Source: a virus
IMG/VR virus record: IMGVR_UViG_3300034954_000175
Span: 1 to 41,365 of that record
Length of the DNA: 41,365 nucleotides
Direction: 5' to 3' (one strand)
The notes below the pieces were generated by a model that worked only from the letters and a program-made list of their open reading frames with translations, was not told the DNA's origin and made no database searches. Position 1 is the stretch's first letter. Each line of letters begins with the position of its first letter. Both the position numbers and the translations under genes were made by a program. Below are positions 671 through 28,400 of the stretch, one piece after another.

Positions 671-1330
671 ATGAACTACACAGAGCTAACACAGGCTATA
701 AAGGACTATACGGAAAACACAGAGACTTCTTTTGTGGCTAACATCCCTACGTTTGTCCGTCAGGCAGAAGAGAAGATACTTCGTCAGGTTCTCATACCAG
801 AGCTTAGAAAAGCTTCTACTGGCTCTACTGCGTCAGGTTCTCAGTATCTAGCTAGGCCAAGTGATATGATAGCTGTGTACTCTATAGCTATACAGGATGC
901 GAGTGGTAACTGGAGCTACCTCTTAAACAAGAACGTGACTTATATGAAAGAAGCATACCCTGCTTCTGATACAGGCTTACCTAAGTATTATGGTCAGTTT
1001 GTTGGGGGTACAACAAGCACTCCGGGGTTTTTCATATTAGCGCCAACTCCAGATCAAGCCTATCTAGCTCAAATAAATTACTATTACGATCCACCATCTA
1101 TTGTAACAGCGGGTACAACATGGTTGGGTGACAATGCCGAAACAGCTTTGCTGTATGGGTCATTATTAGAAGCTTATTCGTTTATGAAAGGTGATACAGA
1201 ACTTATGAACGAGTATAGAAAACAACATCAACTGGCTATGCAAGCATTTACCAAGGTGGGTGGTCTGCTGCAACAAGATGGCTATAGAAATGGGGAGGAG
1301 GGCTACGGCCCTGATGAAGCTAATGTTTAA
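671..1330 (+). CDS. head-tail adaptor protein (P22 gp4 / SU10-adaptor-like)
   Basis: A 219-residue, mostly helical protein. The N-terminus (MNYTELTQAIKDYTEN) followed by FVRQAEEKILRQV is characteristic of adaptor proteins that form the first ring below the portal in short-tailed phages. The middle contains YLARPSDMIAVYSI and a beta segment ending in INYYYDPP. The C-terminal part has the helical ALLYGSLLEAYSFMKGD motif followed by EYRKQHQLAM. Length fits the family. The stop overlaps the start of the next gene. Family assignment rests on remembered motifs rather than a search; the general role in head-to-tail joining is reasonably secure. Confidence 0.7.
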   Translation: MNYTELTQAIKDYTENTETSFVANIPTFVRQAEEKILRQVLIPELRKASTGSTASGSQYLARPSDMIAVYSIAIQDASGNWSYLLNKNVTYMKEAYPASDTGLPKYYGQFVGGTTSTPGFFILAPTPDQAYLAQINYYYDPPSIVTAGTTWLGDNAETALLYGSLLEAYSFMKGDTELMNEYRKQHQLAMQAFTKVGGLLQQDGYRNGEEGYGPDEANV

Positions 1331-2079: not shown

Positions 2080-2880
2080 GTGGTCAAATTCGCAGATAGA
2101 GTTAGGGTAGGTACAAGTACAACTGGTACTGGAACTATAACATTAGGGTCAGCGGAAACAGGCTATCAAACTTTTGCCTCTGGTGGTGTTAGTAACGGAG
2201 ATACTGTTAGGTATGTAATAGAAGATGGAGTTAGTGCTTGGGAGATTGGGACAGGTGTTTACACTCACTCAGGCACTACTCTAACTAGAGTTTTAACTTC
2301 TAGTTCTACGGGATCTCTACTAAATCTTAGTGGCAATGCAAAGGTTTTTATAAGCCCTTCTGCTGCAGACTTAGTTTTAGCTCCTAATGCTTTTAATGTT
2401 AACGAGTTTACGGCAACAGCAAACCAAACAACATTTACGGTAAATTACACAGTAGGCACCATTGATGTTTTTCTCAATGGAATCAAACTGTTACAGGGAG
2501 ATTATACGGCAACAAATGGCACAAGTGTCGTCTTAGATGATGGCGCTGCTGCAGGTGATAAAGTAGAAGTTGTGGAATATGGGCTTGGCGATAGCAATCT
2601 TTCCACATTCTCAAACACTTTTACATTGCCCGGATCTGATGGGTCAAATGGGCAAGCGTTAGTTACAAATGGTAGTGGGACACTTAGTTTTTCTACTATT
2701 TCTGGTGGGGGTGGAGCTACTGGTGGTGGTAGTGACACAGTTTTTCACGAAAACTCTACCACAGTTACAACAAGTTATACTTTAACTACAAATAAAAATG
2801 CCATGTCGGTAGGCCCGATTACGATAAATAGTGGGGCGACTGTTACAGTCCCTTCAGGAGCTAGGTGGGTGTTGCTATAA
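2080..2880 (+). CDS. tail fibre / receptor-binding protein
   Basis: 266 residues, starting at GTG with GAAGGTGAT upstream. The N-terminal part ([20 protein letters not shown], then [20 protein letters not shown] and LTRVLTSSS) is a module widely seen at the N-terminus of phage tail fibre proteins. The middle contains an [17 protein letters not shown] / VDVFLNG-like beta segment ending in DKVEVVEYG. The C-terminus ([19 protein letters not shown] then GARWVLL) is a recurrent fibre-tip ending. The stop TAA shares its last base with the next ATG (TAATG), implying translational coupling to the propeller protein. Confidence 0.75.
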
Positions 2881-4040
2881 TGACTGAAATAAAAGTTGAT
2901 AACGTACAGAATGCAGCAGGTTCAGGTAAACCAAACTTTCCTGTGTCTCCTACACACTCTGCAGGTTCAGCTCTTTCTACGCTAAACACATACTCGTATA
3001 CATCTTCTGGTTCAGAGCCAAGCAGTCCTAAAAATGGAGCTTTGTGGTGGGACAGCGGCAATGATAAAGTTATGGTTTATATAGCAGGTGAGTTTAAGGA
3101 GATTGAGTTAAACGCTGCCGCCGCCGCTGCTTTTACTTGGGGTGGTGATAGAGGTGTTTTTGCTTCTGGTTATGCAAACGGAAATTATCAAAATACAATA
3201 GATTATATTAATTTAACCTCTGCAGGTAATGCTACCGATTTTGGTGATACAACAGAAACAAGAAACGGAGCTAGGGCAACTGGAAGCTCAACTCGATTTG
3301 TTACTGGTACAGGTTATACTGGAAGTGGCTATAGTCAAAATTTGGATTATATAACCACTGCAACCACAGGAAATGCCTCTGATTTTGGTGATCATACACA
3401 TACTGGAATTAGTGGATTGAATAATGGTATTGTATCAAGCGGCACAAGAGGGTTATTTGCAGGTGGATATTCTGCTAGTCTTTCTGCCAGAGTCAATGAA
3501 ATCACTTATATAACTATAGCTAATACTGGAAACACGACAGATTTCGGAGACCTTACTATAGCATTAAATAATGCTGCAGGTGCAGGTGATGGATCTAGAG
3601 GTTTATTTGGAGGTGGTCAGAACGCAAGCTTTGGGTATGAAAATACAATAGGGTATGTAACTATTGATACTACAGGAAATGCCACAGATTTCGGAGACCT
3701 TACTATATCAAGAAAAGAAGGCTCTGGAGCTGCAGATACTACTAGATCTCTTTTTCTTGGTGGTTCGGTTTCTGGAACGGCATCAGACGGGGTTGTGATC
3801 GATTATGTTACAACCCAAACTGCAGGGAATGCTACCGATTTTGGAGATCTTCTTAGTTACAGGTTTGATGGCGCTGCAAGCAGTAATGGAACAAAGGCAG
3901 TAATGACGGGTTATTACAACAATGCTACATCAAATGTAATTGAGCAAGTTACTATACAAACCGCAGGAAATTCCACAGACTTCGGTGATCTTACTTTAGG
4001 AAGAACCGGACATGCTGGAGGATCAGGAACAGCATCATGA
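2880..4040 (+). CDS. six-repeat beta-propeller-like tail fibre protein (copy 1)
   Basis: Start at ATG 2880 (TAATG overlap) rather than the in-frame GTG at 2865, giving 386 residues. N-terminal attachment module ([11 protein letters not shown] ... GSEPSSPKNGALWWDSGND ... VYIAGEFKEIE) comes first. From about residue 85 to the end there are six tandem repeats of about 48-52 residues, each following TRGlFaGGy...NtIdYvTIatTGNATDFGDLt. The Gly-Gly turns and regular spacing suggest Kelch-like blades of a six-bladed propeller; this is inference from the repeat pattern. Likely a receptor-contacting fibre. Three homologues with the same repeat number follow at 6619, 7834 and 8958. Overlaps the next gene by ATGA. 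Confidence 0.75.
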   Translation: MTEIKVDNVQNAAGSGKPNFPVSPTHSAGSALSTLNTYSYTSSGSEPSSPKNGALWWDSGNDKVMVYIAGEFKEIELNAAAAAAFTWGGDRGVFASGYANGNYQNTIDYINLTSAGNATDFGDTTETRNGARATGSSTRFVTGTGYTGSGYSQNLDYITTATTGNASDFGDHTHTGISGLNNGIVSSGTRGLFAGGYSASLSARVNEITYITIANTGNTTDFGDLTIALNNAAGAGDGSRGLFGGGQNASFGYENTIGYVTIDTTGNATDFGDLTISRKEGSGAADTTRSLFLGGSVSGTASDGVVIDYVTTQTAGNATDFGDLLSYRFDGAASSNGTKAVMTGYYNNATSNVIEQVTIQTAGNSTDFGDLTLGRTGHAGGSGTAS

Positions 4041-4972
4041 CAAAATCAAAGAATAGACAGTTTGCAGAATTAGCCAGATCTACAAAACTTGCAGAGTTAA
4101 AAGACGCTGACATACCTGCTGGATTAACAATATCAGCATATGGAGCTACTCTTATTGATGATGCACATGCTACTGCAGCAAGAACTACACTAGGTTCTGT
4201 TATAGGTACAGACGTTCAAGCACATTCCTCTGTACTAGATAACACTACAGCATCTTTTACTACAGCGTTAAATACAAAGCTATCTGGTATAGCCGCAAGT
4301 GCTAACAACTATGTTCACCCTAATCATAGTGGCGAGGTTACAAGCTCTGCTGACGGTGCAACAGTTATTGCTGATAATGTAGTTGATGAAGCTAATCTAA
4401 AAGTAAGTAACTCACCTACAAATGGATACTTCCTTTCAGCACAGTCAGGAAATACAGGTGGATTAACTTGGGCAGCTGTTCCAGCGGGATATTCTGATAG
4501 TGATGTAGACACGCATTTAAACCGCTCAAGTGCTTCGAGTGGTCAATATCTGCAATGGAACGGCAGTGATTACGCTTGGGCTACTGTTTCAAGCGGCAAC
4601 CCTTTTAACCAAAGCTTAAATACAAGCGATAGCCCAACTTTTAGCGCATTGACTGTAACAAATACGTGTACAGCAAACACTTTTAACGCTACTTCTGACG
4701 CAACTTTAAAAACAAATATTGCGCCAATAGAAAATCCCTTGGCTATTCTGGAAAACATAACAGGCGTGTCTTTTGATTGGAAAAATAATCAAGGAAGTGC
4801 CGAGGGCGTTTTAGCGCAAGACGTAGAGCAAGTATTGCCCAACGCAGTTAACACAGATGAGCAAGGGAAAAAATCTGTCAGCTATAATAATTTAGTCGGT
4901 GTGCTTATTGAGGCAGTTAAAGGGCAACAAAAGCAAATTAATGAATTAAAGGAAAAATTAATTGGCTTATAG
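4037..4972 (+). CDS. tail fibre/spike with C-terminal S74 intramolecular chaperone domain
   Basis: 311 residues. The N-terminal part is Ala/Thr/Ser-rich fibre sequence with FTTALNTKLSGIAASANNYV and HPNHSGEVTS, a motif frequent in phage fibres; the middle contains GQYLQWNGSDYAW and SPTFSALTVT. The C-terminal ~90 residues are a peptidase S74 (endosialidase chaperone) domain: TSDATLKTNIAPIENPLAIL, GVSFDWKN, GVLAQDVEQVLP, YNNLVGVLIEAVKGQQKQIN. In this family the chaperone directs trimerisation and then cuts itself off using a Ser/Lys dyad five residues apart; Ser220 and Lys225 match. A mature fibre ending near residue 219 is therefore expected. Starts in an ATGA overlap with copy 1. Confidence 0.85.
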   Translation: MTKSKNRQFAELARSTKLAELKDADIPAGLTISAYGATLIDDAHATAARTTLGSVIGTDVQAHSSVLDNTTASFTTALNTKLSGIAASANNYVHPNHSGEVTSSADGATVIADNVVDEANLKVSNSPTNGYFLSAQSGNTGGLTWAAVPAGYSDSDVDTHLNRSSASSGQYLQWNGSDYAWATVSSGNPFNQSLNTSDSPTFSALTVTNTCTANTFNATSDATLKTNIAPIENPLAILENITGVSFDWKNNQGSAEGVLAQDVEQVLPNAVNTDEQGKKSVSYNNLVGVLIEAVKGQQKQINELKEKLIGL

Positions 4973-5366
4973 AGTTAATAATGTTGAATATGTGAACAGT
5001 AGCGGTCAGTTTAGTAACCAAGACTTATTTAGAACTGTTCATGGAAACAGCCTTATAGGGACAGGAAATATAGATACATCGCCCGGTTCGGCGGCCTCAT
5101 GGGGGACAAGTCATAATTCAGTAGGTTCTCTAATTACTGGTTTTAATCTTTCATACTCTAACCAAAATGCGGGCGATTCTGTTGCTGGGTCAAGCCTTTA
5201 TCACTTTGTATGGACGAGCAATCAGGAATTTTTGCCAATGGAAAATTGGCGTAACAGCCAAGCTAATTTACAATATCAAAGTTTAGGTGGAACGTGGCGA
5301 TCCTTAAATTATCACCATTCAAACTCAACTACTAACCACAATAGTTTTTTTTGTAGGATATCATGA
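4962..5366 (+). CDS. small tail-tip-like protein, tandem family member 1
   Basis: 134 residues from TTG 4962, supported by AAGGAAAAA just upstream and an 11-base overlap with the S74 gene. It shares its overall plan with the next two genes: an N-terminus of type M-[ATS]-[YF]-x-[VI]-N, an Asn/Ser/Tyr/Gly-rich middle, and a C-terminal block here reading GGTWRSLNYHH ... FFCRIS. No known domain recognised. Position directly behind a chaperone-bearing fibre suggests a fibre-tip or adhesin partner; that is inference. The start codon is the least certain part. Confidence 0.6.
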   Translation: MAYRVNNVEYVNSSGQFSNQDLFRTVHGNSLIGTGNIDTSPGSAASWGTSHNSVGSLITGFNLSYSNQNAGDSVAGSSLYHFVWTSNQEFLPMENWRNSQANLQYQSLGGTWRSLNYHHSNSTTNHNSFFCRIS

Positions 5367-5752
5367 CTTACCAAGTAAATGGAACAAATATAATAACTAC
5401 GAATTTGCAGTTCGCAACAACTTTACTGCCTAAAACTATTAACGGAAATAATTGTGTTGGATTCGGTGACACACACTGGGTACGGCCTCGCTTTTGGAAT
5501 TATGTCGGGACGTATGGCGTTTTTGTAGGAACAAGAGGCTCTGATTACGATTATAGTGCAAATAATACTCTTGGAAGCAGTAGCTTATATTATACTGGTA
5601 GCTCCAACTATGGTTACTCTTATCCTTGTGTTAGAGCAAACCCAAATCATCAAGGTGCAGGTGTGAGTGGAACGTGGCGGCATACAAGCACTAGGTCACG
5701 AAGCGTTTTTGGCACTGACATGGTTCCCGCTCTTTGGTGTAGGATTTCGTAA
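5363..5752 (+). CDS. small tail-tip-like protein, tandem family member 2
   Basis: 129 residues starting MTYQVNGTNI in an ATGA overlap with member 1. Rich in Tyr, Ser, Gly and Asn. The C-terminal block SGTWRHTSTRSRSVFG ... LWCRIS aligns with GTWRSL...FFCRIS of member 1, and both end at the same distance behind it, while the middle is very different. Two Cys (PCVRANP and LWCRIS). No enzyme motif, membrane segment or signal peptide. Probably a virion surface protein by context. Confidence 0.6.
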   Translation: MTYQVNGTNIITTNLQFATTLLPKTINGNNCVGFGDTHWVRPRFWNYVGTYGVFVGTRGSDYDYSANNTLGSSSLYYTGSSNYGYSYPCVRANPNHQGAGVSGTWRHTSTRSRSVFGTDMVPALWCRIS

Positions 5753-6174
5753 TGTCTTTTCAAATAAACGGCACTCCTGTTATGTTTTCTGGAAACACAA
5801 AATTGTACGATAACGGTGTACAGTTTAAAAACTATATGGGAACAACACTTGTAAGAAATACTAGCCAAGCAACAAATTTATATAGTGCTACTGCTTATGC
5901 TACCAATTTTAATTATATTGGTAATTATACGCTTGCATTCTGCGACTCACGATACACTTATTACTCGCCTATTGTTGGAGGCAATAGAGAATTTGGAAGT
6001 GATTTATATACCATTAGATATACTAGCGGTTTATCTCAACCTATAACTTGGGGTACTTCTGGGGGGTCTACTGGTACGAGCCAAACTGGATTGTCTGGAA
6101 CTTACGAGCATATGTGTACTAGGTCAGCTTATTACGGCTATCGTATATTGGCACTTTATCAGAGGGTTGCATAA
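5752..6174 (+). CDS. small tail-tip-like protein, tandem family member 3
   Basis: 140 residues starting MSFQINGTPVMFSGN, in a TAATG overlap with member 2. The family plan is kept (N-terminal SFQINGT like TYQVNGT of member 2; C-terminal SGTYEHMCTRSAYYGY then LALYQRVA, matching SGTWRHTSTRSRSVFG then LWCRIS), but identity in between is low. Rich in Tyr, Thr and Gly. The three tandem genes read as diverged duplicates under diversifying pressure, fitting a receptor-contact role. Function is not proven by sequence. Confidence 0.6.
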   Translation: MSFQINGTPVMFSGNTKLYDNGVQFKNYMGTTLVRNTSQATNLYSATAYATNFNYIGNYTLAFCDSRYTYYSPIVGGNREFGSDLYTIRYTSGLSQPITWGTSGGSTGTSQTGLSGTYEHMCTRSAYYGYRILALYQRVA

Positions 6175-6602
6175 TGATTTGGAGTATAACTGAAGTAAGA
6201 AACGCAAAGTCAATGAATGAAGACAATAGCGCATTAGATATGGAAATTAACCATCCTGAATTAGGGTGGATACCTTATAGTCTAAATGCTCATGACCCAG
6301 ATAATAGTATAAGCAACGAGCAATTACTTGATTTAGTAGGTTCAGATTATGCCGCTTATGTGCCGCCAACGTCAGAAGAAACTATTGCAAAACAAGCAGC
6401 AATAGCAAGGGCAGAAAGACAATTAGCTTTCGAGCATTTTGTTGACCCATTCGTTACAAATAGCTTGCGTTGGAACAGTATGACGGATGCGCAAAGACAA
6501 ACTATAACCGATTATAGACAACAGTTATTAGATATATCTGAACAATCTGGTTGGCCTCATACTATAGAGTGGCCTACACCGCCAGACACCTCTGGTTTTT
6601 AG
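6174..6602 (+). CDS. tail fibre assembly chaperone-like protein
   Basis: 142 residues from ATG 6174 (TAATG overlap). The N-terminal half (MIWSITEVRNAKSMNED, DMEINHPELGWIPYSL) and a central helical AERQLAFEHF segment lead to a C-terminal RWNSMTDAQRQTITDYRQQL ... SGWPHTIEWPTPP. The yRqqLldi...gWP..i.WPtpP ending is typical of phage tail fibre assembly chaperones (lambda Tfa-like / Caudo_TAP), which help fibres fold and are not always kept in the virion. Its place in the middle of the fibre cluster fits this. Family call from motif memory. Confidence 0.65.
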   Translation: MIWSITEVRNAKSMNEDNSALDMEINHPELGWIPYSLNAHDPDNSISNEQLLDLVGSDYAAYVPPTSEETIAKQAAIARAERQLAFEHFVDPFVTNSLRWNSMTDAQRQTITDYRQQLLDISEQSGWPHTIEWPTPPDTSGF

Positions 6603-6618
6603 TTAGATAGGAAGCAAT

Positions 6619-7830
6619 ATGAGTACACTAAGAGTAAACACCATTACGAATAATGGGAGTGCCGTTGACTTACCTCAAAAATTTAAGATAGGCGGGAGCA
6701 ACGTAGAGCAAGGATATACAGCTAGTGGAAGTGAACCTAGCAGCCCTGCAACAGGTGACTTTTGGTGGGATAGCAGTAACGAAAAACTGTACAGATATAT
6801 TAACGGTGAGTTTAAACAGTTAAGTCTGGCTGGATCTTCTGCTCCTGTCTGGGGTGGTTTAAAAGGTTTTACCACAGGGGGCGGCGCTTACACTAATGCT
6901 GCAGGTTCTGGTGACCCACAGGGGCCAAGTAGTAGTTACCTGCAACAGATAGATCACTGGACTATAAATGATAGCACACAGGGTACTGATTTTGGTGATC
7001 TTAATATGACTCAACCTAACTACACTTATGGAGCGAGCAATAATACAAGAGGTGTAATTGCTTCTGGTTATCAAGGTAGCGGAACAGCCGCAAATCAAAT
7101 AGACTACATAACCTGTGCCACAGCAGGAAATGCTTCTGATTTTGGAGATCAATCTGTTGAAAGAACTACTAGTATGGGAGCTGTTGGTAATGGAACTCGT
7201 GGTATCTTCGGTAACGGATATAGCTTTGGTCAAAACGGTTACGTTAACACTATTGACTATGTAACCATCGCCAATACTGGCAACGCCACCGATTTTGGAG
7301 ACATGCTAGGGGGAGAAGGTAGTAATACAGGCAATTTGAAAAGTGGAGCCTCTTCTAATGACGAAACTACTGGGCTGTTCATGGGTGGTCATACACAAAG
7401 CCCGTATACTTATCAAAATAGAATACAAAAAATAACTATGGCGACAGCAGGAAATGCTGTTGATCATGCAAATCTTACTGGAGCAAACGCATATTTTTTA
7501 AAGGGTGTAATATCTGATAATACAACTGGAATAGTTGGAGGTGGTTATAACGGCTCTCAAGATGTTCAGTCTATAGATAGATTTACTATTGCCACTGGTG
7601 CAAATGCTACTGATCATGGAGATCTACCTAATGGCGTTAATGATGGAGCCGCTGTTTCTAACGGTACTTACGGAGAGTTTGCAGGAAGTAATTTGGGAGC
7701 AGGAGTTGCCAGTGGCCCCAACCTTGATGGAAGAAGGTATGTAGTTACCATAGCAACCGCAGGTAATGCCTCCTTTATAGGGAATCTTGCTATTAGGTGG
7801 TATAGTACTTCGGGTTTTTCTGGGGCTTAG
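6619..7830 (+). CDS. six-repeat beta-propeller-like tail fibre protein (copy 2)
   Basis: 403 residues, with AGGAAG before the ATG. The N-terminal module (MSTLRVNTITNNGSAVDLP ... GSEPSSPATGDFWWDSSNE ... YINGEFKQL) starts with the STLRVNTI type opening common in marine phage fibres. Six repeats follow. The first is unusually long (insertion GPSSSYLQQIDHW); repeats 4 and 5 have degenerate cores (GNAVDHANL, ANATDHGDL) and the last reads GNASFIGNL. The most divergent of the four paralogues. Probably a receptor-binding fibre. Only three bases separate its stop from copy 3. Confidence 0.75.
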   Translation: MSTLRVNTITNNGSAVDLPQKFKIGGSNVEQGYTASGSEPSSPATGDFWWDSSNEKLYRYINGEFKQLSLAGSSAPVWGGLKGFTTGGGAYTNAAGSGDPQGPSSSYLQQIDHWTINDSTQGTDFGDLNMTQPNYTYGASNNTRGVIASGYQGSGTAANQIDYITCATAGNASDFGDQSVERTTSMGAVGNGTRGIFGNGYSFGQNGYVNTIDYVTIANTGNATDFGDMLGGEGSNTGNLKSGASSNDETTGLFMGGHTQSPYTYQNRIQKITMATAGNAVDHANLTGANAYFLKGVISDNTTGIVGGGYNGSQDVQSIDRFTIATGANATDHGDLPNGVNDGAAVSNGTYGEFAGSNLGAGVASGPNLDGRRYVVTIATAGNASFIGNLAIRWYSTSGFSGA

Positions 7831-7833
7831 AAT

Positions 7834-8961
7834 ATGAGTGAATTCCTAAAAGTAACAAAACTTAGTGATAGAGCAGGTACTGGCGCTGTTAATTTTTCTA
7901 ACGGTTTTAATATAAACGGTTCTGATAGCGGTATTTCAAGCTTTACACATACAGAAGGAGCTACCGAGCCTAGCAGCCCATCCAACGGAGACACTTGGTG
8001 GGATAGTGATAATGACATCTATAAAGTCTACATGGACAATGCATGGAAAGACTGGTTAGGAACTTCTGCTGCTGCATTTGGTTGGGGCGGTGATAGAGGG
8101 ATTACCGCAGCAGGAGATGGCGCAAGCACTTATAATACTATCGACTATTTTGATATAACTTCAGCAGGTAATGCGACTGATTTTGGTGACACATCAAGTG
8201 GCGCTAATAAAGTAGCAGCTATAAGCAATGCTTCAAGAATAGTTATTGGTAGTTTGCCGCCAAGCAACACACAAACTTTAGAATATATTACATCTTCTAC
8301 AACAGGAAATACTACAGACTTTGGTGATCTAATAAACGGGATGAGTTATTGCGGTGCGGTTAGCAATGGAACCAGAGGAGTTTGGGGCAGCAAACAGAAC
8401 AGTGGCGGTATGGAATACATTACTATAGCCAACACAGGTAATGCTACATCTTTTGGGTCTTTAGATTCTTCGAATTCTTTTGCTAATAATGGCCCCGCTT
8501 GCGGTAGTGATGGAAGTAGAGGACTATTTGCAGGTAACGGTAATGGGTCTAGTATCACAAACGAGATTCAATACATAACAATAGATACAACAGGAAACGC
8601 TACTAATTTTGGTACTCTAACTACTACATGGAGAGATTTTTATGGGTTTCAAAAAGTCTCCGATGCTACAAGAACAGTTTTTGGTGGAGGTTTGTCTACA
8701 GGAGGTAGCAATAATACTATAGACTATGTTACAACTGGAACTACAGGAAACGCTACAGATTTTGGAGACATGACTACTGGAGTAAGAGGTTGCACAGGTA
8801 CATCTAACGGCACTGTTGGTGTTTGGATGGGAGGATATACTTCTACTACTGTAAACACTATTCAGTCTGTAACTATACAAACACCCGCAAATGCTGCGGA
8901 TTTTGGTGACTTAACTGTTGCAAGGTATGAAAACGCAGGGTCATCAGGAGCCGCATCATGA
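7834..8961 (+). CDS. six-repeat beta-propeller-like tail fibre protein (copy 3)
   Basis: 375 residues. Residues 7-77 (KLSDRAGTGAVNFSNGFN ... TEPSSPSNGDTWWD ... WKDWLGT) form an N-terminal module nearly identical in protein to copy 4. The remainder is six repeats of about 45-52 residues with cores NATDFGD, NTTDFGD, NATSFGS, NATNFGT, NATDFGD and NAADFGD. The propeller fold is inferred from repeat number and glycine pattern. Ends in SGAAS, like copies 1 and 4, and overlaps copy 4 by ATGA. Confidence 0.75.
   Translation: MSEFLKVTKLSDRAGTGAVNFSNGFNINGSDSGISSFTHTEGATEPSSPSNGDTWWDSDNDIYKVYMDNAWKDWLGTSAAAFGWGGDRGITAAGDGASTYNTIDYFDITSAGNATDFGDTSSGANKVAAISNASRIVIGSLPPSNTQTLEYITSSTTGNTTDFGDLINGMSYCGAVSNGTRGVWGSKQNSGGMEYITIANTGNATSFGSLDSSNSFANNGPACGSDGSRGLFAGNGNGSSITNEIQYITIDTTGNATNFGTLTTTWRDFYGFQKVSDATRTVFGGGLSTGGSNNTIDYVTTGTTGNATDFGDMTTGVRGCTGTSNGTVGVWMGGYTSTTVNTIQSVTIQTPANAADFGDLTVARYENAGSSGAAS
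7852..8064 (+). repeat. N-terminal fibre module, first copy of pair
   Basis: 213 bases encoding the attachment module of propeller copy 3. It aligns without gaps to 8976-9188. The encoded proteins are nearly identical but silent positions differ at more than half of conserved codons, so this is a diverged direct duplication kept under protein-level selection. Confidence 0.8.
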
Positions 8962-10166
8962 GTACTGCCGAAGAAGTTACAAAAATTAGTGACAGGGCAG
9001 GAACGGGTGCGGTCAACTTTTCTAACGGCTTCAATGTAAACGGATCTGACAGTGGCATCTCAAGCTTCACGCACACAGAGGGAGCAAATGAACCAAGTAG
9101 CCCATCGAATGGCGACACATGGTGGGATACGGCCAATGATGTATATAAAGTATATATGAACAACGAATGGAAAGAGTGGCTAGGTACTACCTATTCTGGC
9201 CCTGCTTATATGGGTACTAGGGGTATAATAGCGAGTGGTTATGGGGGTGGCCCATCTAATACAGGGGCAGAAGATATACAGTATATAACTATAGCCTCTG
9301 CAGGAAACGCTACAGATTTTGGTAACTTGACAAGATATACATCCCGCGCTGGAATGCACTCTAATGGATCTAGGATTATCGTAGCTGGGGGACGGGCTGG
9401 GGGAACCGCGACAAACTCTATAGACTACGTTACAGCAGCAACCCCCGGAAATGCTTCCGATTTTGGTGACCTGACTGAATCAAGGTTTGGTATGGGAGGT
9501 GGAGGCGATGCTACTAGAAGCGTTTTCGCAGGTGGATGGGGGGCGGTCAATACAGGGTCGCAAACAGGAACCGACAGCAGAACAATAGATTATATAACCA
9601 CTGGCACTACAGGAAATGCTACTAACTTTGGTGATCTGTCTTACTATCGAAAGTATATATCAGCAACTTCAGATGCTACCCGTACTATATTTGCGGGTGG
9701 ACAAGAGACTGTTAGTGGGACTACCTCCCTTGTTAATAAAATGGAGTATGTAACAACTCAAACAACAGGTAATGTTACTGACTTTGGAGATTTATTGGCT
9801 GTAAACTATTCTATGGGTGCTGGAGTTATTGCTAGTGAGACAAGGGGTATTTTTGTAGGCGGTGCGCAGACAAGTCCTTCTTTTACTTATGAGCAAACTA
9901 TACAATATGTAACCATTGCAACTACAGGTAATGCGACTGATTTCGGTGATACTCTTCAAGGCATTTTACACTCTGCTACTTGTGCTGATGGCACCACTGG
10001 AATAATTGCAGGTGGACAAAAAGGTGGCTCGGGTAGCCAAGATGATAACACAATACAAAAAATTACAATAGCAACAACAGGCAATGCAACCGATTTTGGT
10101 GATTTAAATGCCATAAATAGCTCAGATGCTAACAATAAATACGCTTCTGCCGCATCAGGGAGCTAG
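8958..10166 (+). CDS. six-repeat beta-propeller-like tail fibre protein (copy 4)
   Basis: 402 residues from the ATG in the ATGA overlap. The N-terminal module (KISDRAGTGAVNFSNGFN ... NEPSSPSNGDTWWD ... WKEWLGT) matches copy 3 almost residue for residue although the codons differ widely. Six repeats follow, cores NATDFGN, NASDFGD, NATNFGD, NVTDFGD, NATDFGD and NATDFGD, with loops longer than in copy 3 (for example VNTGSQTGTDSRTIDY). Ends in AASGS. Last gene of the propeller cluster. Likely surface-exposed receptor-binding fibre. Confidence 0.75.
   Translation: MSTAEEVTKISDRAGTGAVNFSNGFNVNGSDSGISSFTHTEGANEPSSPSNGDTWWDTANDVYKVYMNNEWKEWLGTTYSGPAYMGTRGIIASGYGGGPSNTGAEDIQYITIASAGNATDFGNLTRYTSRAGMHSNGSRIIVAGGRAGGTATNSIDYVTAATPGNASDFGDLTESRFGMGGGGDATRSVFAGGWGAVNTGSQTGTDSRTIDYITTGTTGNATNFGDLSYYRKYISATSDATRTIFAGGQETVSGTTSLVNKMEYVTTQTTGNVTDFGDLLAVNYSMGAGVIASETRGIFVGGAQTSPSFTYEQTIQYVTIATTGNATDFGDTLQGILHSATCADGTTGIIAGGQKGGSGSQDDNTIQKITIATTGNATDFGDLNAINSSDANNKYASAASGS
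8976..9188 (+). repeat. N-terminal fibre module, second copy of pair
   Basis: 213 bases in propeller copy 4, partner of 7852-8064. Third positions end in G or C more often than in the first copy (for example gac/gtc/aac/ttc/cac against gat/gtt/aat/ttt/cat). Confidence 0.8.
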
Positions 10167-10184: not shown

Positions 10185-11024
10185 ATGGGAAAAACTAAAA
10201 AGAAAACTAACGTAGTAACGAAACCAATTACGTTCTCGTTACCTATAGAGGCGTCTGAGAATATCAATCAGGTAGCTGCTGCGCGGGTGGCAGAGAAGTT
10301 ACCAGAGATAGATCAGGCGACTAGAGCGTTTGATCGTAATAACTCAGCTACAACTCTGTCTATGATGACGCTTACTATGCTTAACGGTCACTCACCTTAC
10401 CGTATGCTTCGTCAGATTACGGCAGAGGTAGAAAAGCGTAAGATGGCACTTGCAGACGCGCAGGTCTCACATGCTGAGAAACGTGTAGAATTACTTGAGC
10501 TTGAAGAGGCTGATGACGTTGTTTCTGAGGCTAAACTTAAAGCAGGTAGGCACGGTCTTACAATGATGGAGCATAAGATAAATGGCTCTATCAAAGACAT
10601 TGCGGTTCTTATCGATAGCTATGAGAACATAAAAGAGAAGTGGGGTATAGACGAGTGGGATGAAGAAGCCTTTGAAAGAGAAGAGAAGCGTCACCATGTG
10701 CGCCGTGGCTTTGAGCTTATGTACCGAAACCTGATGGATGGTGGCAGGGTATCTACTTCTACAATAGAATACATGCAACAATATGGCGTTCACCCACAGG
10801 TAGCTATGACTGAGGTCTCTGGGTATATACAGCATACCGCACAACGTATTAAGAACCATGAGCTACCTCACTCTAACGATTTAGAAGAATTTATGGATTT
10901 AATGGCGGATAAGTATTATAAGAATGCAGATAAAACTGCTGAAAGAATATTCGGCAAATCAGATTTTCTGAATCCTGAATATATGTTAAGGTTAGAAAAA
11001 TCGGAGAAAAAAGATGATACTTGA
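10185..11024 (+). CDS. predominantly helical phage protein of unknown function
   Basis: 279 residues, AAAGGAGA before the ATG. Basic N-terminus (MGKTKKKTNVVTKP), then an extended charged helical region (residues about 75-150, with AEVEKRKMALADAQVSHAEK and VELLELEEADDVVSEAKLK) likely to form coiled coil, then EKWGIDEWDEEAFEREEKRH and a helical C-terminus. No membrane segment or enzyme motif. Sits between fibre genes and the second cupredoxin gene; a scaffold, chaperone or internal structural role are all possible. Not assigned to a family. Confidence 0.65.
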   Translation: MGKTKKKTNVVTKPITFSLPIEASENINQVAAARVAEKLPEIDQATRAFDRNNSATTLSMMTLTMLNGHSPYRMLRQITAEVEKRKMALADAQVSHAEKRVELLELEEADDVVSEAKLKAGRHGLTMMEHKINGSIKDIAVLIDSYENIKEKWGIDEWDEEAFEREEKRHHVRRGFELMYRNLMDGGRVSTSTIEYMQQYGVHPQVAMTEVSGYIQHTAQRIKNHELPHSNDLEEFMDLMADKYYKNADKTAERIFGKSDFLNPEYMLRLEKSEKKDDT

Positions 11025-14847: not shown

Positions 14848-16767
14848 ATGGTATTACAAAAAATGGAATTTAGGCCCGGAATAAACTCGGAGCTTCCTGA
14901 TTACGCCAATGAAAACGGTTGGAGTGATGGGGATAAGATACGGTTCAGAGAAGGTTACCCAGAAAAAATAGGTGGTTGGGCTGCTAAAGGTGAAAATCAG
15001 TTTATAGGTTCTTGCCGTGCATTAAAGCCTTGGTTGACGTTAGAATCAGATAGATTGGTAGGGGTGGGTACGCACCTTAAATACTACATAGAAGACGGTG
15101 GAGTCTTTTATGACATTACACCAATAAGAAACACAACCGCAGCGGGAGATGTAACTTTTTCTGCCACAACTGGTAGTCATGTTATAACTGTGACAGATAC
15201 AAACCATGAAGCTAAACTAGGTGATTTTGTTACGTTTAGTGGGGCTGTTGGCCTTGGAGGGGCAATAACAGCAGATGTTTTAAATCAAGAATATCAAATA
15301 CAAACAGCTACAAACAGCACTTATACGATAAATGCTAGGACAGCAAATACGGACATAAATCAGTATTATGATGGTGGGGTTATAGATGATACCGCAGCAT
15401 ATGTATCAGCGACATCAGGAGATACAAACACTGGTGGCTCAAATACAGTAGGCGCTTATCAAGTGCAGTCTGGTGTAGATACATCTACTTTTGGCAATGG
15501 TTGGGGTGCAGGTACATGGTCTAGAGGAGCTTGGAACTCAAGAGCTTCAGTCAATGTTTTGGCAGAGACATTAAGATTATGGCAACATGATACTTTTGGT
15601 GAAGACCTTATTTTTTGTGTACGAGATGGGCCAATATTCTACTGGGATACATCTAGCACTGTTTCTCAGAGAGGTGTATACTTATCAGCCCTTACAAGTG
15701 CGAGCAACACACCTTTAGTAGCAAAACAGGTTATGGTGTCAGATATTGATAGGCACGTTATAGCTTTTGGCTGTAATCCGCTTGGATCTAACGTACAAGA
15801 CCCTCTTCTTATTAGATTTTCAGATCAAGAAAATCCTGCGAATTGGACACCTTTGACTACCAATACAGCAGGAGATCTCCGTATAGGTTCTGGTACAGCC
15901 ATAGTGCAAGCGGTTGAGACAAGACAAGAAATACTAGTTTTTACAGACCAAGGTCTACACTCTATGCAGTTTATAGGCCCACCTTTTACTTTTGGTATAA
16001 ACAGGGTTTCAGAGAATTTAAGTATTAGAAGTCCTAACTCTGCTGTTGCTATAGGTGATAATGTATATTGGATGGGTGTTGATCAATTTTATGTGTACTC
16101 AGGTAATGTCTCTCAACTTAATTGCACAGTAAAAGAGAAAGTACTTACAGATATTAATAATGAGCAGTCAGAAAAAATATTTGTTGGTGTAAACTCTGGC
16201 TACGGTGAAATATGGTGGTTCTATCCATCGTTAGAAAGTGAAAACATTAATAAGTACGTTGTCTATAATTACAATCAAGACATTTGGTATTATGGGACTT
16301 TAGACAGAACCGCATGGATAGATATGGGTGTAGATGATTACCCAATAGCAGCGGGGACAGATGGTAAACTTTATTTCCACGAGTTTGGACTTGATGACCA
16401 AAGCACTCCAACGCCAACTGCAATCAATGCTTTTGTGCAATCTGCTCCCATAGATTTAGGAGATGGTGAGGTCTTTAGCTATGTTCGAAAGCTAATACCT
16501 GATGTAACTTTTAGAAACAGCACTAATGCTGCACCGACAGTAGATTATACCATAGACGCTTTTAACTATAATGGTGGGCTGCAGGTTAGCACTGACACAG
16601 CAAATATTGTTAAATCTTCCTCTGTTCCCATAGAGCAGTACACAGAGAAAGTAGATCTTAGAGTTAGAGGTAGAGCTATTGCTTTAAAAGTGCAATCTTC
16701 TCAAACAGGCACAACATGGAGATTAGGTCTAAATAGACTTGATATTAGACCTGACGGAAAAAGATAA
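14848..16767 (+). CDS. tail hub/nozzle protein, P22 gp10-like
   Basis: 639 residues. Opening MEFRPGINSELPDYANENGW then SDGDKIRFREGYPEKIGGW is characteristic of gp10-type DNA-stabilising/nozzle proteins. Central DPLLIRFSDQENPANWTP, TAGDLRIGSGTAIVQAVETR, EILVFTDQGLHSMQFIGPP, SPNSAVAIGDNVYWMGVDQF are propeller-type segments of that family. An inserted beta domain (about residues 95-170, SGDFVTFSGAVG-like) follows the N-terminus. In P22 gp10 sits below the gp4 adaptor ring and closes the DNA channel, consistent with the adaptor at 671. TAATG overlap with the next gene. Confidence 0.75.
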   Translation: MVLQKMEFRPGINSELPDYANENGWSDGDKIRFREGYPEKIGGWAAKGENQFIGSCRALKPWLTLESDRLVGVGTHLKYYIEDGGVFYDITPIRNTTAAGDVTFSATTGSHVITVTDTNHEAKLGDFVTFSGAVGLGGAITADVLNQEYQIQTATNSTYTINARTANTDINQYYDGGVIDDTAAYVSATSGDTNTGGSNTVGAYQVQSGVDTSTFGNGWGAGTWSRGAWNSRASVNVLAETLRLWQHDTFGEDLIFCVRDGPIFYWDTSSTVSQRGVYLSALTSASNTPLVAKQVMVSDIDRHVIAFGCNPLGSNVQDPLLIRFSDQENPANWTPLTTNTAGDLRIGSGTAIVQAVETRQEILVFTDQGLHSMQFIGPPFTFGINRVSENLSIRSPNSAVAIGDNVYWMGVDQFYVYSGNVSQLNCTVKEKVLTDINNEQSEKIFVGVNSGYGEIWWFYPSLESENINKYVVYNYNQDIWYYGTLDRTAWIDMGVDDYPIAAGTDGKLYFHEFGLDDQSTPTPTAINAFVQSAPIDLGDGEVFSYVRKLIPDVTFRNSTNAAPTVDYTIDAFNYNGGLQVSTDTANIVKSSSVPIEQYTEKVDLRVRGRAIALKVQSSQTGTTWRLGLNRLDIRPDGKR

Positions 16768-19607: not shown

Positions 19608-19987
19608 TAGGACAGTTACTAGGGCCAGTAGCGGGTCTAGCTAGTAGTTGGCTCGATGCAAAGACTACAAAGCAAGCTGCGGAAGCAAAATTAAAACTTA
19701 CTGAGGCCGAGGCGAAAGCCAAGATACTATTATCTGAAAAGACGTCTGTGGCTGATTGGGAACGTATCATGGCGGAGAACAGCGGTTCGAGCTGGAAAGA
19801 CGAATTTTTCGTAATTGTGCTGTCAATCCCGCTTGTTTTAGCCTTCATACCGGGTGCAGAGGGTATTGTGGATAGGGGTTTTGAACAGCTTCACAAGGCA
19901 CCGGACTGGTATTTTTACAGCTTGGGTATTGCAATAAGTGCGTCTTTTGGCGTGAAAGGATACAAGCAGTTTGTGAGGAGAAAGTAA
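19604..19987 (+). CDS. holin, 3TM (GTA-holin-like) family
   Basis: 127 residues. A hydrophobic N-terminus (IGQLLGPVAGLASSWLDAK) is followed by an Ala/Glu/Lys-rich helix (TEAEAKAKILLSE), the SGSSWKDEF motif, and two membrane segments (about 68-84 and 102-119), ending in basic KGYKQFVRRK. This order, including the AEAEAK helix and SSW[KR]DE just before the TM, is that of the 3TM holins found in gene transfer agents and phages. It would make the membrane lesion that frees the endolysin. Directly coupled (TAATG) to the GH19 gene, which fits. Confidence 0.75.
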   Translation: MIGQLLGPVAGLASSWLDAKTTKQAAEAKLKLTEAEAKAKILLSEKTSVADWERIMAENSGSSWKDEFFVIVLSIPLVLAFIPGAEGIVDRGFEQLHKAPDWYFYSLGIAISASFGVKGYKQFVRRK

Positions 19988-20604
19988 TGGCGTTTGAAGC
20001 ACTAAAACAACTACAAAAAAAGTGTGGTGTAGCGCCAGACGGTGCATTCGGCCCTAACACAGCCAGAGCTATAGTAACACACTACGAGTTGTCTCCAGAA
20101 AGAGGCGCACATTTATTGGGTCAAGTTGTGCATGAAAGCGGATCTTTTAAGTATACAAGAGAAAACCTAAACTACTCTGTAGAAGCTATCATGAAAGTAT
20201 GGCCTAGCCGTTTTCCTACAAAAGAGAGCGCAGAACCATTTGCCAGAAACCCTAAAGCACTGGCTGAAAACGTATATTTTGACCGCATGGGGAACGATAC
20301 CAAAGAAAAAGCCAGCGCCTACATAGGCCGAGGATTTTTACAATTAACCGGATATAACAACGTCAGATCTTTTGCATCAGACATGCGTGTCCCAGAAGTT
20401 CTAGATAACCCACAGTTGTTAGAAGAAGATTATGCAATGGATACAGCTCTGTGGTTCTTTAAGAAGAATAATTTATGGAAAATATGTGATGAAGGTGTCA
20501 ACGATGACACTATAAAAAGACTGACAAAACGTATAAACGGCGGTTACACTGGACTAGACCACCGTGTGAAGGAAACAAAGAAGATTTATGAGTGGATATC
20601 TTAG
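19987..20604 (+). CDS. endolysin, glycoside hydrolase family 19
   Basis: 205 residues. The fold of GH19 chitinase-like lysozymes is shown by GAHLLGQVVHESGSFKYTRE (catalytic Glu50 in HES), NLNYSVEAIMKVWPSRFP, YIGRGFLQLTGYNN and the C-terminal TKRINGGYTGLDHR. A short N-terminal segment (KQLQKKCGVAPDGAFGPNT) looks like a reduced peptidoglycan-binding motif. No signal peptide is present, so it depends on the holin for export. It cleaves glycan strands of the cell wall at the end of infection. Placed directly after the 3TM holin. Confidence 0.85.
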   Translation: MAFEALKQLQKKCGVAPDGAFGPNTARAIVTHYELSPERGAHLLGQVVHESGSFKYTRENLNYSVEAIMKVWPSRFPTKESAEPFARNPKALAENVYFDRMGNDTKEKASAYIGRGFLQLTGYNNVRSFASDMRVPEVLDNPQLLEEDYAMDTALWFFKKNNLWKICDEGVNDDTIKRLTKRINGGYTGLDHRVKETKKIYEWIS

Positions 20605-25440: not shown

Positions 25441-28400
25441 ATGGGTATATACTCCTACACAGACCCTCAAACAGGTAAGTCTTATCAGTTTGAACACGCA
25501 GGAGAAGCGCCAACTAACGAAGATTTTGCGTTTATAGCAGACTACGTGAGGGGCGAACGGGAGCAATATGCTAAAAAATATAAAGATCTTTTAGGTGAAG
25601 ACTTTGAACCTGACGATGGTACAGCTTTTGGTCGGGGGTTAGATCGTGCGTTTGAAAACATACGAAGCGCAGTCGGCGAAACAATAGGCACTGCAGGAGA
25701 AAAAACAGGTCTAGGTTTTCTTGAAAACTTTGGTCTTGGTATGGAGGAAAAAGGTAGGCAAAACCTAGGACAGTTGTTGGCAGATCAACCGGAAAGATTA
25801 CAATCCACAGATGTAGATAGTATAGGTTCAGCTCTAACCTATGCAGGGGAAGTAGTCGGCGAACAACTACCACAATTAGGTCTTGGTATAGGTGCAGTAG
25901 CATTAGGCGGTGTACCAGCCGCCGCTACCGTAACTGCTCCGATTTTGTTTGGTAACAATATCCAAAGACAAGAAGACAGAGTAGCAGCAGGAGAACTTGA
26001 TAGCGTCGATGTAGGCGCGGCTCTTCGAGCTACGTTTGGACAAGCAGCCCTTGAAGGTATATCTGACAAGATCTTGTTAGGTGGACTGTTCCGACCTATA
26101 GGCGGATCAATATTTACACGAACTATAGGCCGTGCAACGGGCGGTGCTACAACAGAAGGTCTAACCGAAGTTGGACAACAGATGCTTGAGCGCAGTCAAG
26201 CAGGTCTAGCCATTGACAGCGAAGACGCGATTGCAGAGTATCGTGAAGCAGCTATTGCAGGTGGCCTAATTGGTGGCGGCACACGAGCCACTTTCGGCGC
26301 GTTTCAAGGCTCCCCAACACGAGACGATCTACCTACAGATACACAAACAACACCTGCTGTAGAACCTGTAGTGGACACAGAAGCTACTGAGACAACACAA
26401 GAAACACAAGAAACACAAGAAACACAAGAACTCGATCAAGCGAAAGAGGCTAGAGATGCAACTGATACCACAGGAAATACAACTGTCAGTGAGGGAACTG
26501 GAACAGGCGATGGACGCGGTGAACCTAGCGTGGTTGGAGGCACAGGGACTGGAAGTGGAAATACGAATACCGAAGTCACTACATCATCTAACGATGGAGC
26601 AATGGGAAGAGGTAAGCTGTCTACTGATGATACTACAACATCAGGCACTAACGAGTCAGATACACTAGCACTAGCAAAGGCGGGGGTTGCAATCGCTAGT
26701 GATCCAAGATTGTTAACACAAAGCGAAAGCTTTGTACGTGAGGAGCTAGACGCAGAATACTCCCCAGAAGTTATAGAAGCGGTAATAGCAAATCGCCGTC
26801 TAGCCGGTATACCAACTGAAGGTACAAAGACTGAAACCGAAGCTGTAAACATGAGTGGTATGCTTACTGAGAAAGCAGAAACCAAAGAAGCCGCTACTAC
26901 AGGCACTACTGATACAGATGTACAAGAACAAGAACAAGAACAAGAGGCGTTTGCTGAAGAATTAGAAAAACAAACAGAAAAGCAGACCGCTACACCTGTG
27001 CAGACGATAGGAGACACTTCTGAACTTACTCAAGCAGAGCTGTTTGATGATTTACCTACAACTCCTCGTGGTGAGGTAGGTGTTGTAAGGGACACTCAAG
27101 GACCGCTACCTAATGTGATACCTCAAGGACAACCTACGCTACCACTTCAACAACCAGAGGGCGTTGGACCTAGAGGCTTGGTTACGTCACCTCCACCAAC
27201 AGGTGTCCCTACTACGGGGCAAACGACAGGAACTGCGGGACAGGTAATACCCCCGGGGGTACAAGTCCCTGTCACACCAAGAGTTGTTGGTGCGCCTGTA
27301 CAGCAAGAAGTGTTACAAGCTGCTGAAGTAGAAAGGCAGACAGCGGCACAGCAACGTATAGAAAAAATATTCGAAAGTAATCGCGGTAAACAGGGAACTC
27401 GTAGAGAGTATCATGATACTCAAGTAGATCCCCGTGCTACTGAAGATACAACAACAGCACTAGATAAAGAAGCTGTAGCTGATCTCATTGAAGCGAAAGA
27501 CAAAGGCTTAGACGCTAATGCCAAAGCTGCGAAACTCTATTTTAAAAGATTTCGAAGACCCATTGATGCAGTAGCTGAGATTGGCGCGATGCGCGTTACA
27601 GGGCCGACACAGCAAGCACTTGAATCAGATAAGATTACTGGTGGGAAAACAGACAAGGATGATAGCGGTAGGCAGTACTACACACCAAAACAATTTGCTT
27701 ACTACCAAGGTATGACTCAACAGAACGCACTCAAAGCTACAGCATGGGTTCGTGAGAATATGTCCGAAGGGCCAAGAAGAGAATTAGCTGAGTCTAGATC
27801 TGTAGCCATGAGGGATACGACTCCACATCAAATTTCGGACAATGCTCTAAGAATAAAAAGAGAAGCGCAAGAAATAAAACGCAAAGAAGAAAAAGCAGAA
27901 AGAGAAAGGATTAGAAGGTATACAAAAGACCAGACACTGCGAGAAGAAGAACAAAACGTAGCTCCTATAAAAATGCCAATACCGCCTTGGGAGCAGAAAA
28001 ACAATGAACTAGCACTTATAGATCCTGTGCATAATCTAAACACGGCGTTACTACCTAGCATACGGAACGCCTTGCTACGAGGTGATCTACAGTTCGCTCT
28101 TAATGCAATAGCTGCTACTAACAATGGAGATCGTGTACGTCAGATAGCTGCAACGTTAGCTGAAAACGTAGGCACAACAAAAGTAGAGGTTGTTGATAGT
28201 GTTACTGAACTACTAGGGAAAAGAGCAGTTGGCTTCTTTGAGCCTGAAACAAACACCATATACATAGATGCCAACGGAGGCATGAACACACATACTCTAC
28301 TACATGAGATGATGCATGCGGTTACCTCTGCAACAATAGCTGATAACCCTTCTCTACCAGAAACACAGCAGCTACAGAGTTTATTAAATGCAGCTAGAGA

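Follow-up and report, generated by a model that had tools for sequence, protein, structure and literature searches.

Predicted six-bladed kelch-type propellers, putative exchangeable adhesins, in the tail-fibre locus of an uncultured phage

Kelch-type proteins are known from tailed phages. Several per genome occur in jumbo phages, for example CBB_550, CBB_552 and CBB_554 of phage CBB and proteins of BcepSaruman and of PhiPA3 and its relatives. CBB_552 has been found in the mature virion (PMC5259590). Cyanophage P-HM2 is also listed with a kelch-repeat protein (PMC3037559).

Propellers also occur in receptor-binding proteins. The receptor-binding protein of Staphylococcus phage phi11 has a propeller platform, with a cavity that could hold a sugar receptor (PMC4901313). 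Clusters of receptor-binding proteins are likewise described: Ackermannviridae carry up to four (TSP1-4), with distinct C-terminal specificities (PMC9965104). Marine-phage ‘metaviromic islands’ hold tail-fibre genes with a conserved N-terminus and a variable C-terminal recognition part (PMC3909814). Kelch propellers in jumbo phages, propeller receptor-binding proteins and clusters of multiple receptor-binding proteins are in other words already known.

Here we describe four propeller genes on 41,365 nucleotides of viral DNA, the full length of IMG/VR record IMGVR_UViG_3300034954_000175, called the window below. Related loci from other sequences carry L numbers. In the open-licence papers searched we found neither this propeller family nor its six-only rule, and no account of its exchange of cassettes or of propellers split in two.

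The locus and its genes

All four propeller ORFs are present and complete (Table 1). The initial annotation had placed them in one locus, and they are all there; three are adjacent, and gene 1 is separated from these by five others, namely the S74 fibre, three small genes and the tail-fibre assembly gene. Gene 1 starts with an ATG, has an in-frame GTG at 2865, and overlaps the tail-fibre-like gene immediately upstream. The last four bases of gene 3 are also the first four of gene 4. The record is a 41 kb ‘linear’ one, so the genome would carry at least four propeller genes.

Table 1. Features of the window, and split propeller genes in related loci.
Feature	Sequence	Position	Strand	Remarks
SU10-type tail adaptor	window	671..1330	+	Pfam PF24175, 9.5e-21
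Tail-fibre-like gene	window	2080..2880	+	PHROG 34255 (1e-11), 5342 tail fiber (8.5e-6)
Propeller gene 1	window	2880..4040	+	386 aa; N-module and six kelch-like blades ~3147-4031
Fibre with C-terminal intramolecular chaperone Peptidase_S74	window	4037..4972	+	Pfam PF13884, 2.8e-15; PHROG baseplate/tail fibre families
Three small overlapping genes	window	4962..6174	+	134, 129, 140 aa; by eye they look like paralogues
Tail-fibre assembly protein	window	6174..6602	+	PHROG 4628, 7.7e-19
Propeller gene 2	window	6619..7830	+	403 aa; N-module and six blades ~6883-7827; blades 1 and 6 diverged
Propeller gene 3	window	7834..8961	+	375 aa; N-module alpha type and six blades ~8092-8952
Propeller gene 4	window	8958..10166	+	402 aa; N-module beta type and six blades ~9216-10157
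Stabilization/needle-head type virion protein	window	14848..16767	+	PHROG 3287, 2.3e-73
Chitinase-like endolysin	window	19987-20604		
Split gene	L032	1644-2755		4+2 blades; orthologous to one L103 split, 88% identical
Split genes (two)	L103	4019-4887, 5885-6850		one 4+2 (L032 orthologue), second 2+4
Split gene	L070	7117-8285		4+2 blades
Split gene	L036	4940-6024		3+3 blades; one event with L182, L180
Split gene	L182	2350-3287		3+3 blades; one event with L036, L180
Split gene	L180	816-1759		L036/L182 event; one whole blade lost, total five
Split gene	L223	4882-5822		3+3 blades; also in L227

The SU10-type tail adaptor is a hallmark of short-tailed phages. Together with the stabilization-type protein, it suggests that the uncultured source virus is probably one of these. 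The best relatives of the stabilization-type protein, by tblastn, are in phages DSL-LC04 and CRP-901/902. Roseobacter phage CRP-902, a cultured relative, has a similar gene order of tail adaptor, single large tail fibre, chitinase and ‘constituent protein’, which places the propeller array in the tail-fibre position. The S74 fibre, the fibre assembly protein and the adaptor are all nearby, so by location the array falls among tail-fibre or receptor-binding genes.

Some neighbours deserve mention in their own right. The three small genes have no family match, and they have diverged in L014. The gene at 10185-11024, which adjoins the 3’ end of the array, is 94-98% identical in L008, L012, L014 and L093 despite strongly differing arrays, and finds no match in cultured phages. 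At 25441-31605 the window encodes a 2054-residue protein, the C-terminal part of which resembles a DarB-like antirestriction family (PHROG 10089, 1.3e-37).

Blades, fold and blade number

The four proteins have in common an N-terminal module of about 85 residues, with the motif EPSSPxxGDxWWDxxN...Y, followed by six repeats of about 50 residues. The products of genes 2 to 4 are 39-48% identical to that of gene 1. A blade profile, seeded with the repeats from the window and with three related genes, recovers six blades, no more and no fewer, from each protein, in agreement with the initial annotation. The scores in bits are 46/38/68/73/65/41 for gene 1, 15/64/65/37/61/14 for gene 2 (where blades 1 and 6 are weak), 37/44/50/45/62/52 for gene 3, and 50/49/60/61/71/50 for gene 4. 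A search from gene 4 recovers the paralogues at E-values of 1e-28 to 1e-58. This, and the recurrence of the count of six in hundreds of relatives, means that the resemblance is not due to chance.

As cut here, the repeat starts in the middle of a blade. Strand B and a Gly-Gly turn come first (TRGxFAGG), then a variable loop and the stretch NxIDYITIATTGNATDFGDL, which holds strands C and D; a variable segment leads on to the next strand A. The double glycine after strand B, typical of the kelch fold, is dominant at profile columns 7-8.

Known sequence families are of little help here. The only Pfam kelch match is that of gene 4, at 12.1 bits against a gathering cut-off of 20.1 for Kelch_1; genes 1, 2 and 3 have none. 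Pfam and PDB sequence searches yield no significant family for the propeller proteins, and the only PHROGs matched are 26444 and 19111, both of ‘unknown function’. Searched with tblastn against cultured phages, gene 4 finds nothing at E<1e-5 and gene 1 finds only S-SKS1, at E=2; a close homologue is absent from about 50,000 phage records. Hundreds of environmental phages do carry the family. Matches from the genome collection are mostly on MAG contigs, and these were left out of host assignment.

Structures were predicted with AF2 for gene 4 (pLDDT 86.3, pTM 0.80, alignment of 86 sequences) and gene 2 (pLDDT 81.2, pTM 0.77, alignment of 63 sequences). Both models give a propeller of four-stranded blades. 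Their top Foldseek matches in the PDB are mainly kelch domains with six blades (KLHL12, KLHL3, KEAP1 and the designed SAKe6), with E-values down to 2.3e-18 and 4.4e-16, target TM-scores mostly of 0.83-0.90, and 313-344 alignment columns. Among the targets, each covered over its entire length, are KLHL12 (6v7o, E 2.3e-18, TMt 0.85), SAKe6 (8pjr, TMt 0.90) and KEAP1 (1zgk, TMt 0.88). Despite its weak outer blades, the gene 2 model fits six-bladed domains from end to end.

In the gene 4 model the first blade is entered at strand B and the final DSSP strand is at 397-401. Nearly all relatives terminate 0-8 residues past the last blade. The strand order and the structural match suggest ring closure of the ‘velcro’ type, in which the C-terminus would supply strand A of blade 1. 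The products of genes 1 and 3 are homologous to the modelled proteins, with six profile blades each.

Blade numbers in relatives provide further evidence. Related loci were taken from IMG/VR and GTDB because they resembled six-bladed queries, and more divergent forms may be under-sampled in the counts that follow. A refined blade profile was applied to 392 closed, non-identical ORFs. Six blades were counted in 326 of these, twelve in 39 and eighteen in one. The seven ORFs with an apparent seventh blade all include a match of 3-6 bits upstream of the first real one, and a single count of five (L192) hides a diverged blade that is visible by eye. Of the remaining 18, 16 are single halves of split genes and two are fragments. 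Truly variable blade number was considered and rejected: with the refined profile or on inspection by eye, the counts of 5, 7 and 11 turned out to be only apparent.

Each of the listed proteins with 12 or 18 blades has a linker of 12-16 residues directly behind blade 6 (where there are 18, also behind blade 12), with practically no linker at other positions. Numbers of 6, 12 and 18 are what ring closure leads one to expect. Varying repeat counts between related genomes had been named as a sign against a closed ring, and apart from the two fragments the only exceptions are split genes. Based on the two models and these counts, the proposed closed six-bladed propeller is strongly supported. The predicted proteins have the kelch fold and lie outside the Pfam Kelch sequence family. 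As a natural example of ring closure quantising the number of repeats, the family is a clear one.

The collection also contains some odder data. L034, L081, L091, L062 and others have the tandem double or triple propellers. The fragments, L161 2787-3200 (three blades, anomalous start) and L291 76-774 (a short ORF with two blades), follow neither the rule of six nor the split pattern, and are possibly assembly artefacts or decayed genes. In L254 (166-1167) the N-module is joined to another type of repeat domain, made up of five units of about 50 residues and possibly a five-bladed propeller. In the 660-residue protein of L063 (6891-8870), the six-bladed propeller is preceded by an fn3 domain and by a match to a seven-bladed propeller of Lactonase type (Pfam PF10282).

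Exchange, loops and split genes

The nearest relatives with a complete array are L014 and L069. Compared to these, propeller genes 1 to 3 are 94 (on amino acids for gene 1), 94.5 and 96% identical and the gene downstream 97.5%, while gene 4 is only 49% identical. For the propeller parts of the first three genes, identity to the nearest relatives is 92-98%; the fourth has been replaced. Gene 1 is 99.7% identical to its counterpart in L013, and L093 lacks a close counterpart of gene 2.

The pairing of modules is crossed. Between gene 3 and L014 gene 3, the propellers are 98% identical on amino acids with a dS of 0.05, and the N-module dS is saturated. Between gene 3 and L014 gene 4, the N-module dS is 0.16 and that of the propeller 1.6. 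The N-module of gene 4 in turn matches that of L014 gene 3, with a dS of 0.36, where all N-module values are from short stretches of 48-56 synonymous sites. This means that N-modules have been re-paired with propellers and that at least one propeller was replaced, the breakpoints lying close to where the two modules meet.

The same is seen more widely. Among 157 genes, 83 pairs have N-modules at least 85% identical and propellers below 60%, against 16 pairs where both reach 85%. A conserved N-terminal part and a variable C-terminal part that is exchanged between relatives is the pattern of tail-fibre and receptor-binding proteins. The pairs are also a readable record of the exchange of recognition domains among phages.

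Recombination through the repeats themselves, as initially suggested, was not detected: in the window no recent blade duplication or shuffling was found, with blades within one protein at most 54% identical, and exchange takes place at the boundary of N-module and propeller. Blade order is weakly conserved between proteins, with zero as the best circular shift in 26% of pairs versus 17% by chance. Ancient shuffling would be neither supported nor contradicted by this. The single-blade deletion in L180 demonstrates that repeat-level change is possible, if rare.

Copy number ranges from one to nine per locus among relatives, with three in many loci. Four copies had been called unusual. This holds against cultured phages and not within the group, where arrays of 3-9 are normal.

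In a set of 2658 non-redundant blades, it is strands B, C and D that are conserved, and both the highest entropies and the differences in length fall in the BC loop, after the double glycine, and in the D-A segment. Entropy in the BC loop is about 3-3.9 bits, and insertions there reach 12 residues. Between genes 1 to 3 and their L014 orthologues, 26 of 265 positions in the BC and D-A loops carry substitutions, compared to 15 of 542 elsewhere in the blades (Fisher p 5e-5). In KLHL proteins, substrate is bound by the DA and BC loops (PMC10146909). This correspondence points to the variable loops as a putative ligand-binding face.

In eight genes of relatives, representing five independent events, the propeller is divided over two ORFs, always within the BC loop and a few residues past the Gly-Gly turn (Table 1). 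This loop accounts for about 16% of a blade. The junction sequences are GGTGGAGATACATAATG, GGGGGAGATACGTAATG, GGGGGCAACAGCTAATG, GGGGGAGATTCCTAATG and GGTGGAGGCAATTAATTTATG. Except in L180, the halves sum to six blades. In four events the restart ATG overlaps with the preceding stop codon as TAATG; the fifth reads TAATTTATG. Such overlap is also the commonest layout between neighbouring propeller genes. The G-rich codons of the double glycine before the restart resemble a ribosome-binding site.

Sequencing error is an unlikely cause, since two of the splits recur across contigs at 88-96% identity and all are in one loop. A programmed frameshift is not required, and a change of frame is impossible in L103 at 6313/6320, where the halves are in the same frame. 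For the second halves, dN/dS is about 0.30-0.43 (L032/L103 and L036/L180) versus 0.80 (L036/L182), all from few changes, which suggests constraint. The two chains would form a two-piece six-bladed wheel. Because the splits recur in one loop, assembly and split-tolerance of kelch propellers become directly testable.

Possible roles and comparison with known systems

The proteins had been described as fibres. No fibre shaft is present in any of the four, and they are globular tip- or adhesin-like proteins with a short N-module. Yet some relatives fuse the propeller to the N-termini of known tail components: L044 with PHROG 1640 ‘tail protein’, and L077 and L070 with tail-fibre PHROGs.

The reading we consider likely, if well short of certain, is that each gene encodes a virion-exposed modular adhesin. 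A short conserved N-terminal module would dock it, and a closed six-bladed kelch-type propeller would present the variable BC and DA loops as one binding face. Different propellers on related docking modules could provide several binding specificities per virion or per phage population, and homologous exchange at the conserved module would swap propellers in and out. The fold (two of four modelled), the six-blade rule, the locus position, the loop hypervariability, the propeller replacement and the re-pairing of N-modules have all been computed. From these we infer attachment to tail or fibre, ligand binding and an effect on host range. The propellers are probably interchangeable grippers of the host surface; a receptor or host-range role is plausible, with indirect support from locus, loop hypervariability and cassette replacement. 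Counting against an adhesin, the N-module lacks a characterised docking function, and motifs related to it are also present in other phages, in large proteins of virion type.

Alternatively, the propellers would decorate head or tail, weakly binding environmental or host polysaccharides for retention or particle attachment, with no choice of receptor. The presence of the kelch protein CBB_552 in the mature virion of jumbo phage CBB (PMC5259590) agrees with decoration, several paralogues would suit it, and no enzymatic signature was found in the propellers. But the array lies among fibre and fibre-assembly genes, where CRP-902 has its tail fibre, and the replacement of a propeller while its flanks stay conserved is what host-recognition genes usually show, as in metaviromic islands (PMC3909814). 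We regard decoration as unlikely. The four copies could also be redundant paralogues kept by drift, or together make one hetero-oligomeric ring, with no separate specificities. Three adjacent genes are common and could reflect a fixed heterotrimer, but this is hard to square with one to nine copies per locus, or with replacement of one propeller in four between close relatives while the others stay 94-96% identical; it seems quite improbable.

Within cells, kelch propellers can act as protein binders, which makes a role other than adhesion conceivable. Working within the infected cell, the propellers would be protein-binding modules for anti-defence or takeover, like the kelch proteins of poxviruses, some of which are among the Foldseek relatives; kelch domains in general are mostly protein-protein interaction modules. 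Against this, the genes are within a structural block, their N-module motif is shared with other virion-type proteins, some relatives carry tail-fibre or tail-protein N-termini, and a partner domain such as BTB is absent. An intracellular role is very unlikely.

The adhesin reading can be extended into a combinatorial system: kelch propellers would be cassettes that can be swapped on one shared docking module, would come in whole six-blade units, and would repeatedly tolerate division into two co-translated chains. This we offer tentatively, with rather more doubt than conviction. Independent of role, a structural identity can now be given to an unannotated family that is common in environmental phages (PHROGs 26444 and 19111).

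The kelch proteins of jumbo phages, with BcepSaruman also a fold match by Foldseek, differ at about 10-16% identity and in their jumbo context, and the parts of those accounts used here do not describe a six-only rule, an N-module or cassette exchange. The phi11 propeller is five-bladed, not kelch, and sits within a large trimer with stem and tower from a single gene. The Ackermannviridae proteins are tailspikes in a branched complex of myoviruses, without propellers. The metaviromic islands have C1q, lectin or YadA-type domains, with no mention of propeller or kelch (PMC3909814). KLHL12, KEAP1 and SAKe6 differ from the propellers in the window by having only 9-16% identity to them; the propellers miss the Kelch_1 cut-off, have a phage N-module in place of BTB/BACK, and have the NxIDYITIATTGNATDFGDL consensus. 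What they share with these three is six blades of four strands each, the double glycine that follows strand B, the variability of the BC and DA loops, and superposition over the whole domain.
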